From assembly GCF_008329965.1 (NCBI RefSeq), contig NZ_CP036150.1:3390439-3454438 (forward strand): a stretch of 64,000 nt of DNA, given 5' to 3'. Below are positions 54,090-62,669 of the stretch, piece by piece. A program made the position numbers and the translations under genes. Origin of the DNA: Oceanispirochaeta crateris (GTDB lineage: Bacteria > Spirochaetota > Spirochaetia > DSM-2461). Numbering within the stretch: position 1 is the stretch's first letter; each line of letters begins with the position of its first letter. The notes beneath the pieces were generated by a model that was given only the letters and a program-made list of their open reading frames with translations, did no database searches and was not told the origin of the DNA.

Positions 54090-54794
54090 ATGGTAAAAAA
54101 AGAACTGACAGAAAAGAGCCCCCTCAGAAGCCTTGAAAAGGCCGTGAATGGGGGGCTTGGAAAAGGAAATATTGCAGTCATAGCTTCTAAGCAGGGTATT
54201 GGTAAGACGGCCTGTCTCGTCCATATCGCTACTGATAAGCTGATGCGGAACAAGCATGTTATACATGTTTCCTATGCAAATAAAGTAGACCATATTGTAA
54301 ATTGGTATGAAGATATTTTCACAGAGATCTCAAAGAAGAGAAGTCTTGAAGGGGCAATGGATGTCCATAATGACATAATCCATAACAGAGTCATCATGAA
54401 CTTCAGTCAGAAAGGGATTCCTGTAAGTCAGGTACTGGCCAGTGTTAAAGCCATGATGGACAATGGCCAGGTGGGAACCGACGCTATCATCATTGATGGT
54501 TTTGATTTTACAATTGGTACAGCCGAAGATATTAAAAAGTTTAAAGATTTTGCCCTTGAAGAGCAGATTGAACTCTGGTTCAGTGACTCATATAAAGGGG
54601 AAGAAAATTTTCAGGATGAACGGGGCATTCCCAAAAACCTGGTAAAAGCCCTGGATGATATATCTGTTGTACTGACCCTTCGGGCAGAACAGAATTACAT
54701 GGTTTTGAAACTTGTGAAAGATCACAAAAGTATAGTTTCTGAAGACCTCCAACTTAAGCTGGACCCCAAAACTCTTCTCATTGCAGAAGTGTAA
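54090..54794 (+). CDS. RecA/RadA-like P-loop protein, orphan
   Basis: This 234-residue protein resembles the ATPase core of the RecA/DnaB/KaiC superfamily. The P-loop is ASKQGIGKT (residues 32-40), with Ser instead of the usual first Gly, and the Walker B strand is DAIIIDGFDF (131-139). It lacks the zinc finger and Lon-like parts of RadA and the length of DnaB. The GGLGKGNIAVIA beginning is typical of loaders that grip a partner. Its role is unknown. An AAGGAG lies nine bases before the ATG, and a terminator follows the stop. Confidence 0.7.
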   Translation: MVKKELTEKSPLRSLEKAVNGGLGKGNIAVIASKQGIGKTACLVHIATDKLMRNKHVIHVSYANKVDHIVNWYEDIFTEISKKRSLEGAMDVHNDIIHNRVIMNFSQKGIPVSQVLASVKAMMDNGQVGTDAIIIDGFDFTIGTAEDIKKFKDFALEEQIELWFSDSYKGEENFQDERGIPKNLVKALDDISVVLTLRAEQNYMVLKLVKDHKSIVSEDLQLKLDPKTLLIAEV

Positions 54795-57649: not shown

Positions 57650-58167
57650 TATATTCATTAAAAGGAAAGGCTCCAACCATAGATAAGGGGGCAGGATTTA
57701 TAGCTCCCAGTGCGGATATTATTGGTGAGGCTGTGATTGCCGAGGGTGTGAACATCTGGTTCAATGCGGTTATCAGGGCCGATATGGATTCAATCAGCAT
57801 AGGCAGGAATACAAATATTCAGGATTGTGCGGTCATCCATACGGATTATGGTATGCCCACCAGCATAGGCGAAGGGGTGACCGTAGGCCATACAGCTGTT
57901 ATTCACGGTTGTACAATTGGAGATAACTGCCTTATTGGAATGGGTGCTGTTGTTTTGAATGGTGCTCAAATAGGTCCTGATTCTCTCGTCGGGGCCGGTA
58001 GCATGGTCCCCCAGGGACTGATTGTCCCTCCCCGGTCTCTCGTCCTTGGTTCCCCAGCAAAAGTTGTCAAGGAATTAAAACCCGGTATGATTGATGCTAT
58101 CCGAAAAAACAGTGCCGCATATCTTTCTAACAGTAAAGATTACCTAGAGGAACTGGCCACACGCTGA
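57646..58167 (+). CDS. Gamma-carbonic anhydrase family protein
   Basis: This 173-residue left-handed beta-helix protein is built from hexapeptide repeats, such as IGRNTNIQDCAVIHTD and IGDNCLIGMGAVVLNG. The zinc-ligand histidines are in VIHTD and GHTAVIHG. Family members are carbonic anhydrase-like or acetyl-/acyl-group handling proteins (YrdA, PaaY). The true activity cannot be told. It overlaps the acyltransferase stop by four bases and should be co-translated with it. Confidence 0.9.
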   Translation: MIYSLKGKAPTIDKGAGFIAPSADIIGEAVIAEGVNIWFNAVIRADMDSISIGRNTNIQDCAVIHTDYGMPTSIGEGVTVGHTAVIHGCTIGDNCLIGMGAVVLNGAQIGPDSLVGAGSMVPQGLIVPPRSLVLGSPAKVVKELKPGMIDAIRKNSAAYLSNSKDYLEELATR

Positions 58168-58322
58168 GCCTGACCCGAAAACGCCCTGTTTTCTCTCTTA
58201 GCTGAATTCCTGCGCATCTGCTCTGTCGCGGCTATTTCCAGCAGTTCTTCCATGTTCTCAATGGTGTCCCCGAGGAGCAACATTTCTTTATAAATATAAT
58301 AGTACTCAAATTGATACCGCAT
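58140..58322 (-). CDS. Possible small protein
   Basis: This is a 60-residue open frame on the minus strand with a leucine-rich helical middle (GDTIENMEELLEIAATEQM) and a basic tail. It overlaps the carbonic anhydrase gene by 28 bases. No ribosome-binding site is visible. It could be a real small protein or chance. Confidence 0.3.
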   Translation of the reverse strand: MRYQFEYYYIYKEMLLLGDTIENMEELLEIAATEQMRRNSAKRENRAFSGQAQRVASSSR

Positions 58323-58339: not shown

Positions 58340-58745
58340 TTTTTTACACATCACTATTCTTTTTTACAGTTTTTTAATATTTGAAATGCCTGTGGATAAG
58401 TGGTGGATAAACTGGTTCCAATTCCGATATAAAGGGGTTTTGATTTCCTTATCTTGTGTATAAATTGTGCATAGAATGTTTATTCATTGTTCCAAGTTTC
58501 TCTGAATAGCTAAAAATCGGCCATTTGAAAGGGATTTCAGCCTGATTTTTGTAAAATCCGGGTTATGTTTGGTAAATATTACAAAATCATAAACAGTGGA
58601 AGATTTACACAATATGCTTTTCTCTTGTGGATAAGTTGTGTATAAACTTGTAAGACTCGTTCTGTAGGGAGTTTGCTCGAATTTTACTCCCAAATTTGCG
58701 TATTCCCTATGAACTGTGATATTTTATACTTAAATTAAATAGGTT
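58340..58745. other. AT-rich region with DnaA-box pairs; possible replication origin
   Basis: This gap of about 400 bases holds no gene. It contains two perfect DnaA boxes (TGTGGATAA at 58391 and 58626) and four near-boxes (58402, 58455, 58466, 58637). They form three same-strand pairs, each spaced exactly 11 bp. T-rich, easily melted sequence (58341-58385) lies beside the first pair. The array is reminiscent of oriC or of a DnaA-controlled promoter. Genes on both sides run in the plus direction, which is unusual for a chromosome origin, and dnaA is not nearby. Confidence 0.45.
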
Positions 58746-58759
58746 TTCAGGAGATCCTC

Positions 58760-59206
58760 ATGCAGCGTCAGAGTAAAGGTTTCACTTCTCTCTTTTTTCT
58801 TCAGTTGGCAATTGCCCTGTTTTTTCTGATTTTGGGGTTTCAGGGTATTATCAGCAATATGTCGCAAAACTCAGGGTTTGCCCAGCAAGTAGCCCGATTT
58901 TTGAATGCGGAGAATCCGGCGGTTCAGAAAACAGAATTAGTCATGGGAATTTTCAGTCTAGTGGCAGGAATCCTACTACTTCTGGGGTTGTTCCGCTTTG
59001 GTGATTTCCGCTTGGTTGTTGTGTCTTCGGTTTTGATTTTCATTTTCTGGTTGACCAGGCTCATTATGGTCCGCTTTATGACAGAGCTTGTTATTAGAAA
59101 TGGGAATATCTCTTTTATGCCGGATTTCTCAACATGGCTTCTGGCAGTATCCACCGATGTCATCATCCTCTGTTCTATCTGGACGATTGCCCGGCGATCA
59201 TCCTGA
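58760..59206 (+). CDS. Small integral membrane protein
   Basis: This 148-residue protein has about four membrane helices (FFLQLAIALFFLILGFQ, LVMGIFSLVAGILLLLGL, VVVSSVLIFIFWLT, TWLLAVSTDVIILCSIW). No family is recognised. The ATG at 58760 is preceded by AGGAG six bases upstream. Its stop lies just before recC, so the two may be co-transcribed. Confidence 0.72.
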   Translation: MQRQSKGFTSLFFLQLAIALFFLILGFQGIISNMSQNSGFAQQVARFLNAENPAVQKTELVMGIFSLVAGILLLLGLFRFGDFRLVVVSSVLIFIFWLTRLIMVRFMTELVIRNGNISFMPDFSTWLLAVSTDVIILCSIWTIARRSS

Positions 59207-59213
59207 GTTCATA

Positions 59214-62200
59214 ATGTGTGCTTACAGGATTTATCAGAGTTCATCCTTACAGAATTTCATAGACAATTATTCTTCTATCCTCACCCCTGACTCTCTTTTT
59301 GGCCGGTCTCTTTATCTGGTTGTTCAAAATAAGAGCATGGGAGAATGGCTTAAGCTTAAGTTGGCAGAAAAGCGGGGTGTTAGCGGAGACGATCCCTATG
59401 TCCTGCCAGAGAAAGCCCTCAGGGAGTTAGCCGGTGGATATGGCTGTGTGCGGACACTATTGGGAGAAGATGATAGTTCTCAGGCTGTTCTCTATATGGA
59501 TAATCTTAAGATAAGGCTCTATAAAATTCTGGAAGAGATGTTCACCCGAGGAGGGACTGTTCCTGCTGTTTGTGATGAGCTTTACCGGTATATATCTTCT
59601 TTTTCAGCTTTAAATGATAGGAATCTCACTCAGATACGGTCGGGCCGGCTTTATGAACTGGCAGACAGTATTGCCGGATTATTCTCCCATTACGGTATGA
59701 ACTGCCTTCCCCTGGTGGAAGCCTGGGAAGAAGGGGTTCCCTACAGCGGCGTTTCAGCTGTTCTTAAAAAACACGAAGACTGGCAACGATTCCTCTGGGA
59801 TAAAGTTTTTGACAACGGTTTGTCTCTCAGCCGGATTTTAAGGACTGTCGAGGCATCCAATGATGTTTATGACCATGAGGTCCGCCGGGTTGTGTTGTTT
59901 GGCTCCTCTTTTTTAGGTGAAACGGCGCTCAAGTTTTTTTACCGCCTTTCCAGGGATATCCAAGTTGATCATTTTATTCTGACACCCTCGAGCCTTTACA
60001 GGAAATATCCGGCCCAGGCGCAAAATCCACTCCTTGTGAGCTGGTGTACCCAGATGGATGGATTTGCCGAGTTGGCAGACAGTTTTGACCTGGAAAAGTC
60101 AGTTCATGATTATCCCATGCCTTCAGAACAATCCGCATTGAGTATCCTCCAGGCTGACATTCTGGAAGACCGAACTGTTCTTGATGAGAAGATTCCACTC
60201 TCCCAAGAGGATCATTCTCTGTCTATACATGGATTCACAAGTCCCTGGAGAGAAGTGGAGGTGCTCAAGGATCTAATTCTGGACGCCCTGAATAAGGATG
60301 AAACCCTTGGCCTGACAGACATCGCTGTTTTGGCTCCGGACATCAATACCTATGCCCCATTCATTGAGGCATTGTTCCCATCAAATGACTCCGGCTTGTA
60401 CCTTCCCTTTAATCTCATCGATCTCAATAGTTCCGAGATGTCACCCCTCATTCAGGCCTTCCTTCATCTTTTTACACTTCCAGGGTCAAAATTCACCCGG
60501 TCAGAACTCTTTGCTCTCTTTGACAATCCCTGTTTCAGGGAGGGACAGAATATCAATCGGCAAGACCGGGACGATTGGCTGCAGCTCTGTGAAGAGCTGA
60601 ACATCAGATGGGGATATGACCGGGAACATAAGGCGGAAATCTATTCGGAGGCAAGCGATTTTAACAGCTGGGAAAGAGGGTTTATGCGCATCCGGGAAGG
60701 TCTTTTCTGGGAGGAGCAGGATGCTCCCGAAATACTGCCTTATGCTTCTCCCGATGAAGACAGTAAGCGCAGCAGGGGTGTTCTGATGCAGGTAGTACAG
60801 AACCTCTTTAATGACTTTTATGAGCTGGACCGTATTTCCATGCCTCTTGAACAATGGGTTCTGCTTGCTGAATCCTTTTTAGAGTCATATTTAAAGCCCC
60901 GCAAAGAGAATCCCGGGGATGAACAGGACCGGTACCGCCTCAAATCCTGTTTTCGTGATATGCTGAATCTTTCCGAGGAAACGCCCCTGCCTGGGGACCG
61001 GGAGTTCGGGTTTTATGTGTTTCGAACCCTCTTAACCGAGTTCATCCGGAAGTCTTCGGGAGTGAAGGGCAGGTATTTGACCCAGGGGATCACCTGTTCT
61101 TCCCTCAAGCCTATGAGAGCAATTCCTTTCAGGAGAATCTATATCCTGGGAATGAATGAGAGTGACTTTCCCGGTGAAGATGAGGCTCTCAGTTTCGATT
61201 TGAAAGATTCTGTCGGGCAGACCATTGACCTTTCCAGAAGAGGGGGAGACCGCTATGCTTTTCTGGAAACCATACTCTCCGCACAGGAGCATTTGACCCT
61301 GTTTTATAAAAATCGGGACGCTCTGCGGGGAGAGGTCCTACAGCCTTCCATTCTTATCAGCGAGCTTCTGGATTATATGAACCGTCGCTTTGATTTCTCT
61401 CCGAAAGGGGCTGCTGAGGATTTTCTGATTCAGGAAGAATCAATTCATAATTTTGATTCAAGGTATTTTGACGGAACCTCCAGGAGTCGTTCTTTTAATC
61501 CCCAGGCTCTGGAAAGTGCGTCTATTCAGGTATGTACCGAGTCTTCCCAGGAGGTTTCATATTCTCTTATCAGGAGGGATGATACCGTATCTGGTGATGA
61601 AGAGGATCTCTCTTTGTCCATTGATGACCTCTTGTCCTATTTAAAGAACCCAGCAGCCTGGTATTTCCGGAGAATTCTAAAGATCTATCCCGAAGAAGAG
61701 GAGAGTCCCGAAAAAGAGAGTGGAGAAATCAGGGAGCTTACCTACCTGGATCGCTATGGTTATTTTGACCGCAGGTTGAAGGCTCCGGGGATGCTGGGGG
61801 ATACTTCAGAGCTTGATTCCTACCTCAAAGAGCAGCAACTGCGGGGAAATCTTCCTGATTCAGATATCCTATTTCTGGAACAGGAACGGCTGCAACAGCG
61901 CTTGAATGAGATGGGTTCTCAAGCTGAATCGAGGCATCTGGCAGATGAACTCACAGATCTTCGTGACCTCCTGGTCGATCCTGAGAGGCTGAACCATCTT
62001 TGGGGGCATGACCCCCTCCTGCCTCAGTTGACTGCCCCCCAATTGCAAAGGAAGATCCTTTATCAGGGTGTCCTCCGTCCCGTTTATCTCAGCGGTATGC
62101 TGGACAGCCTCAGTGTTTCCGAAGACGGGAGTCTCTGGAAAACTCTTGAATTCTGCGATTCGGGAGAACCGGTGCACCGACACAGTTTGAAGGCTCTCCT

Positions 62201-62669
62201 CAAATTTCTAGTCCTCTCCAGCCTTGATGACACCATGAAAGAATTACAGCTCATCAGAATCGGCAAGCGGGACTATCCACGGATGGTCTTCTGCGGCAGT
62301 GGTGATCAGGAGGCTCATCGGGTCATTCTGGAAAACCCTGCTGCCAGGCTGGATGCTCTTGTGACTCTCTGTTTGAAAACTGATGGAGAGGTTCTGCCCC
62401 TGTATCCCGTTTTAGGGGAGGCCTTGGCAAAAGCCCTGGTTCTCAAACCTCAGATGAGTGATGATGAACTTGCAGAGCTGTGGTTGAAGCAGTGGCAGAA
62501 GGAAGCATCCAATAAAAGGGGCACACAAACGTTTCACCGTTGTGTATATAGGCATCATTTTCTCAAAACCCCGCCGGAAGTGGACCCTGTAGCATTGAGG
62601 GAGCTCCTCGAGCTTTTTTACGTACCTCTGTCCAGAGCTGATGAAAAAGGAAAAAAAAGTGGCAGATAA
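59214..62669 (+). CDS. recC: Exodeoxyribonuclease V, RecC subunit
   Basis: This 1,151-residue protein is the RecC subunit of the RecBCD helicase-nuclease, which processes double-strand breaks. Family features are the start YQSSSLQNFIDNY, the SMGEWLKLKLAEKRG segment, IYILGMNESDFPGEDE, a long central helicase-like region and LLSYLKNPAAWYFRRIL. I chose ATG 59214, after the previous stop; the open frame extends upstream but would overlap the membrane-protein gene. It overlaps recB at the end. Confidence 0.92.
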   Translation: MCAYRIYQSSSLQNFIDNYSSILTPDSLFGRSLYLVVQNKSMGEWLKLKLAEKRGVSGDDPYVLPEKALRELAGGYGCVRTLLGEDDSSQAVLYMDNLKIRLYKILEEMFTRGGTVPAVCDELYRYISSFSALNDRNLTQIRSGRLYELADSIAGLFSHYGMNCLPLVEAWEEGVPYSGVSAVLKKHEDWQRFLWDKVFDNGLSLSRILRTVEASNDVYDHEVRRVVLFGSSFLGETALKFFYRLSRDIQVDHFILTPSSLYRKYPAQAQNPLLVSWCTQMDGFAELADSFDLEKSVHDYPMPSEQSALSILQADILEDRTVLDEKIPLSQEDHSLSIHGFTSPWREVEVLKDLILDALNKDETLGLTDIAVLAPDINTYAPFIEALFPSNDSGLYLPFNLIDLNSSEMSPLIQAFLHLFTLPGSKFTRSELFALFDNPCFREGQNINRQDRDDWLQLCEELNIRWGYDREHKAEIYSEASDFNSWERGFMRIREGLFWEEQDAPEILPYASPDEDSKRSRGVLMQVVQNLFNDFYELDRISMPLEQWVLLAESFLESYLKPRKENPGDEQDRYRLKSCFRDMLNLSEETPLPGDREFGFYVFRTLLTEFIRKSSGVKGRYLTQGITCSSLKPMRAIPFRRIYILGMNESDFPGEDEALSFDLKDSVGQTIDLSRRGGDRYAFLETILSAQEHLTLFYKNRDALRGEVLQPSILISELLDYMNRRFDFSPKGAAEDFLIQEESIHNFDSRYFDGTSRSRSFNPQALESASIQVCTESSQEVSYSLIRRDDTVSGDEEDLSLSIDDLLSYLKNPAAWYFRRILKIYPEEEESPEKESGEIRELTYLDRYGYFDRRLKAPGMLGDTSELDSYLKEQQLRGNLPDSDILFLEQERLQQRLNEMGSQAESRHLADELTDLRDLLVDPERLNHLWGHDPLLPQLTAPQLQRKILYQGVLRPVYLSGMLDSLSVSEDGSLWKTLEFCDSGEPVHRHSLKALLKFLVLSSLDDTMKELQLIRIGKRDYPRMVFCGSGDQEAHRVILENPAARLDALVTLCLKTDGEVLPLYPVLGEALAKALVLKPQMSDDELAELWLKQWQKEASNKRGTQTFHRCVYRHHFLKTPPEVDPVALRELLELFYVPLSRADEKGKKSGR

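Follow-up and report, generated by a model that had tools for sequence, protein, structure and literature searches.

The window, a 64,000-nucleotide stretch of Oceanispirochaeta crateris DNA (positions 3390439–3454438 of a single contig of 4,012,482 bp), contains a phased array of DnaA-box-like sites that is syntenic in four genera and lies outside the replication origin. The array groups several DnaA boxes within a short distance outside oriC, the sense in which the term DnaA-box cluster (DBC) is used. With moderate confidence, it is read as an extra-oriC cluster of the datA/DARS/DBC kind that is predicted to bind DnaA and would tune the initiation of replication. The comparison behind this reading covered g1, the genus of the window, with six genomes, the genera g2, g3, g4, g5 and g6, and other families.

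Box pairs, phasing and rarity

Six DnaA-box-like sites, all on the plus strand, form three pairs at 58391–58645. Pair 1 (58391–58410, plus strand) consists of TGTGGATAA at 58391 and GGTGGATAA at 58402 separated by gt, and the same pair is present in G002. Pair 2 (58455–58474, plus strand) consists of TGTGTATAA at 58455 and TGTGCATAG at 58466 separated by at, and lies 171 bp from pair 3, a distance also found in G001 and G002. Pair 3 (58626–58645, plus strand) is formed by TGTGGATAA at 58626, gt and TGTGTATAA at 58637, both perfect, and has a counterpart in all six congeners as well as in g2, g3, and g4. The outer pairs enclose an AT-rich gap of 215 bp (58411–58625), which in the window genome contains pair 2. 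Within each of the three pairs the box starts are exactly 11 bp apart. The first-pass annotation had described same-strand pairs at this spacing, and its positions, strand and phase were all verified. Its division into two perfect and four near sites needs correction, as four of the six match the consensus TTATNCACA (equivalent to TGTGNATAA) perfectly.

Lone near-boxes are common in the window (23 against 17 expected, within the shuffle range), which could be taken to mean that the array is a chance cluster of DnaA-like sites. The 437-bp intergenic gap, however, contains four exact boxes against 0.028 expected, and neither four exact boxes nor three phased pairs were reached in any of 3000 dinucleotide shuffles of this gap. 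Whether such pairs are scattered across the genome by chance, a question posed in the first-pass annotation, was checked with a genome-wide scan at ≤1 mismatch. This returned only eight 11-bp-phased pairs in 4.01 Mb: three in the array, four within 11 kb of dnaA (3112966, 3117946, 3128687, and 3128892), and one elsewhere (865310). The reversed control pattern gave no matches in the same scan. In 1.28 Mb of sampled sequence, near-boxes lay 11 apart on the same strand more often (n=8) than at any other distance up to 40; 12 came next with five, and most other distances occurred one to three times. The clustering and phasing of the array are thus confirmed to be far beyond chance. A chance origin was rejected on pair rarity and the shuffle result, is further opposed by the retention of the element in four genera, and can be regarded as vanishingly improbable.

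The pair outside the array and the dnaA region, AGTGGATAACCTGTGGATAA, stands alone in a short gap between genes, at a great distance from dnaA (L048 about 5310; G000:C1:865310).

Position relative to oriC

In this genome dnaA lies between gyrB and dnaN-recF, at 3118199–3119554, and the locus is itself box-rich. GC skew was followed in 20-kb samples taken every 100 kb and across a contiguous stretch from 2.92 to 3.50 Mb. Within this stretch the cumulative minimum falls at 3.12 Mb, coincident with dnaA, and the 100-kb samples place the opposite switch between 1.3 and 1.4 Mb. The array is at 3.449 Mb on the right replichore, where, from 3.22 Mb onwards and across nearly all of the window, the 20-kb skew is positive. 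An origin is expected at a GC-skew switch, usually beside dnaA, and the array is at neither. Because dnaA-dnaN-recF and the skew minimum are both at 3.12 Mb, 330 kb away, the array is not oriC. The sign change, which the first-pass annotation had proposed as a check, therefore speaks against the oriC option that it had offered.

What the array has in common with an origin is a DnaA-box array in AT-rich DNA, with the same number of exact boxes as the gyrB-dnaA gap (four in each). DnaA-trio runs are uninformative, as no long trio-like tract is present and the longest run is two both in the array and in that gap. The likenesses in boxes and AT content are outweighed by the distance to dnaA and the skew minimum, by the positive skew around the array and by the behaviour of the T-rich tract (58340–58385), so that the array being oriC or part of it is highly improbable. 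The tract had been associated with the first pair, but it is conserved with the small minus-strand gene to the left and belongs to the upstream region of that gene, and insertions part it from the boxes in two congeners. Since it is conserved with the small gene and not with the boxes, it is not a clear unwinding element.

Near dnaA, two parS-like TGTTTCACGTGAAACA sites were observed beside a gyrA-like gene, and parA/parB-like genes lie a few kb from them (L025 about 5271 and 5335; near G000:C1:3113300).

Gene context and conservation

In g1 the array sits between divergent genes in 6/6 genomes, with a small ORF on one side and a TM-recC-recB-recD operon on the other. The earlier statement that all flanking genes run in the plus direction is incorrect, as the left neighbour is an unannotated minus-strand ORF of 60 aa (MRYQFEYYYIYK...) at 58140–58322. 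Its 60 codons are kept in 6/6 genomes of the genus with changes mostly at third codon positions, and the protein has no match in Pfam or NCBIfam. A TATACT-like box lies 6 bp before its ATG and the gene is possibly leaderless. The rightward operon begins with a 148-aa membrane protein (58760–59206, plus strand), followed by recC, encoding exonuclease V gamma (59214–62669, plus strand), and by recB-like and recD-like genes, identified by reading of the sequence. A RecC-based scan of genome contigs gave two loci only. A candidate promoter for the operon, TTGCGT-18-TATTTT, is proposed at 58696–58725 (plus strand) in a block kept in most congeners; it was not reported by the promoter scan, in which promoters and terminators were at background level. 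Repeat-like inserted segments (e.g. AAGTAACATTGCC), which look REP-type, occur in the DnaA-box region upstream of the membrane protein gene in congeners (L056, L053).

The box pairs are present in 6/6 g1 genomes, though the intergenic DNA is largely unalignable and insertion-bearing. Beyond the genus, the element is found between fusA and recC in 10 of the 11 readable genomes of g2 (G006, G011, G021, G024, G025), g3 (G007, G012), and g4 (G008, G013, G017). The remaining g2 genome, G023, has one weak pair only, while G016, G019, and G020 were left out as their contigs end before the site. Some second pairs in these relatives are degenerate, with at least two mismatches. All pair boxes read in the fusA-to-recC direction, and the outer pairs are 235 bp apart, start to start, in the window genome, G002, G021, G024, G007, and G012. 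Elsewhere this spacing is 236 bp (G025), 239 bp (G011), 228 bp (G006), and 215 bp (three g4 genomes), and it is shorter in the remaining congeners (e.g. 180 bp in G003), G004 being compact. Aligned between g1, g2, and g3, the gap in most cases scores close to shuffled sequence, hence gap length is better kept than gap sequence across these genera. Strict helical phasing between pairs was considered and rejected, as not all of the spacings 171, 215, 228, 235, and 239 bp correspond to whole turns.

Neither g5 and g6 nor ten genomes of other families carry the element within the 4–10 kb examined, and the element is therefore dispensable in the class. DnaA identity is about 56–58% in g5, compared with about 61–67% in g2–g4, so a gain in the ancestor of g1–g4 would be the simplest history. 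The distance to dnaA is variable, from about 76 kb in G008 to 330 kb in the window genome. The gene beside fusA in the window (54090–54794, plus strand) encodes a 234-aa protein with a KaiC/DnaB-like ATPase domain, which has no clear family match and is present in 51 of 61 spirochaete genomes. In L190 (G045:C20), which belongs to a genome from a different family, two DnaA-box pairs 169 bp apart lie on the opposite strand, 6.5 kb downstream of a homologue of this gene, and may be an independent module.

The placement of the array in g1 raises the possibility that DnaA on the pairs controls the TM-recC-recB-recD operon, the small gene or both, as activator or repressor, and so couples recombination capacity to replication. 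This would be consistent with the layout of all six congeners, where the array separates the recC operon from the minus-strand ORF, and in g3 the element is likewise upstream of recC. A precedent exists in Borrelia burgdorferi, where DnaA is a transcription factor that activates dnaX-ebfC in vitro and also binds to DNA upstream of further replication genes (PMC9879097). In g2, however, the element lies between the convergent ends of acyltransferase and UDP-glucose-dehydrogenase-like genes (G006, G011, G021, G024), and in G011 and G021 recC is 3.5–4 kb away. In g4 the element marks the end of the right-hand histidine-kinase gene and the start of the left gene, with recC about 9 kb away in G008. 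A promoter geometry is also not fixed, as the start of the last pair varies among congeners, from -134 in some to -220 in another. Thus not every relative that carries the boxes has them in a promoter region, and the convergent ends in g2 mean that a promoter role cannot be the function common to all carriers. A general link to recC was likewise rejected, as many other recC genomes of the set lack upstream pairs and the g2/g4 element can be kilobases off.

As an account of the element, transcriptional control is accordingly somewhat unlikely, and a DnaA-control site is preferred mainly because the element persists in g2 without a need for a promoter. The two are not mutually exclusive in g1. 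The DnaA-controlled regulatory region proposed in the first-pass annotation survives for g1, where the genes are divergent, and is weakened as a general description by the convergent arrangement in g2. The retention of strand, spacing, and place without a conserved gene context would also suit a chromosome-organising or segregation site, acting through DnaA or another reader of TGTGGATAA pairs with no effect on initiation or genes. This is improbable, as it has no positive evidence and the DnaA-box clusters studied in other organisms affect either initiation or transcription.

A second module in the window genome consists of two same-strand pairs 205 bp apart at G000:C1:3128687–3128911 (L045:687–911), about 10 kb from dnaA. 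It adjoins murA-like and STAS-domain-like genes, named by reading of the sequence. Similar modules with the same gene neighbours occur in g1, g2, g3, and three other families (G027, G035, G052), with pairs about 160–220 bp apart, and g5 keeps at least one pair at the murA site. The recurrence of the murA-side module in several families suggests that the architecture is a recurring spirochaete design. It may tentatively be proposed, at less than even probability, that an undescribed and distinct class of spirochaete DnaA-control elements exists, in which two tandem pairs with a length-conserved gap allow DnaA-DnaA bridging, represented by an older murA module and by the fusA-recC module of four genera.

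Proposed mechanism and known systems

The core of the extra-oriC element is two direct tandem box pairs (three in the window genome) on one strand, in 11-bp phase, with the outer pairs typically starting 235 bp from each other. Two adjacent DnaA molecules would sit on each pair, on about one helix face. The kept distance between pairs suggests that two pair-complexes may meet through a bend or loop, for which HU-family proteins, whose genes are present in the genome, could provide the bending. Cooperative binding would then leave less DnaA for oriC through titration or inactivation, or tune initiation in another way; in g1 an additional influence of the site on the TM-recC-recB-recD operon and on the divergently transcribed small gene is possible. 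What we infer from sequence is that DnaA binds, does so cooperatively, loops the DNA and acts on initiation. The DnaA of this genome retains the GGRDHTTV motif, which we take to be its box-reading motif. Of the DnaA-bound array in the first-pass annotation, the conserved DnaA-box cluster is well supported, while the binding is predicted.

The element is most like the extra-oriC DnaA-box clusters represented by DBCs and datA/DARS, although we do not class it as datA or DARS. In Bacillus subtilis, deletion of six DBCs leads to early initiation (PMC5295017). These are likewise DnaA-box clusters outside oriC; the spirochaete element is built of 11-bp-phased direct pairs about 235 bp apart. In the E. 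coli datA/DARS sites, the sites are kept while spacers drift, and the spacing between the boxes and the IHF site of datA matters (PMC4585315). Like the spirochaete element, datA is a non-coding box cluster away from oriC, but it relies on its IHF site and on DnaA-ATP hydrolysis. DARS1 and DARS2 are non-coding DnaA-box elements at conserved chromosomal places, but their core boxes stimulate the release of ADP from DnaA. Their boxes are not known to be arranged as direct tandem pairs. The proteins or sites behind the activity of datA and DARS are those of IHF and Fis. The B. burgdorferi dnaX-ebfC 5′ region is similarly a non-oriC DnaA site in a spirochaete, but that site is a 5′ UTR while in g2 the element described here is retained with convergent genes on either side.

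For Spirochaeta relatives, the open-access literature yielded no paper on DnaA-box clusters outside oriC, and the replication timing of free-living spirochaetes has hardly been studied. A PF00308 search of the window genome returned DnaA and IstB-like ATPases with no obvious Hda, and for this reason cis elements like the array could carry much of the control of initiation. As the element is short, well-bounded, and conserved, it is amenable to direct experiment.
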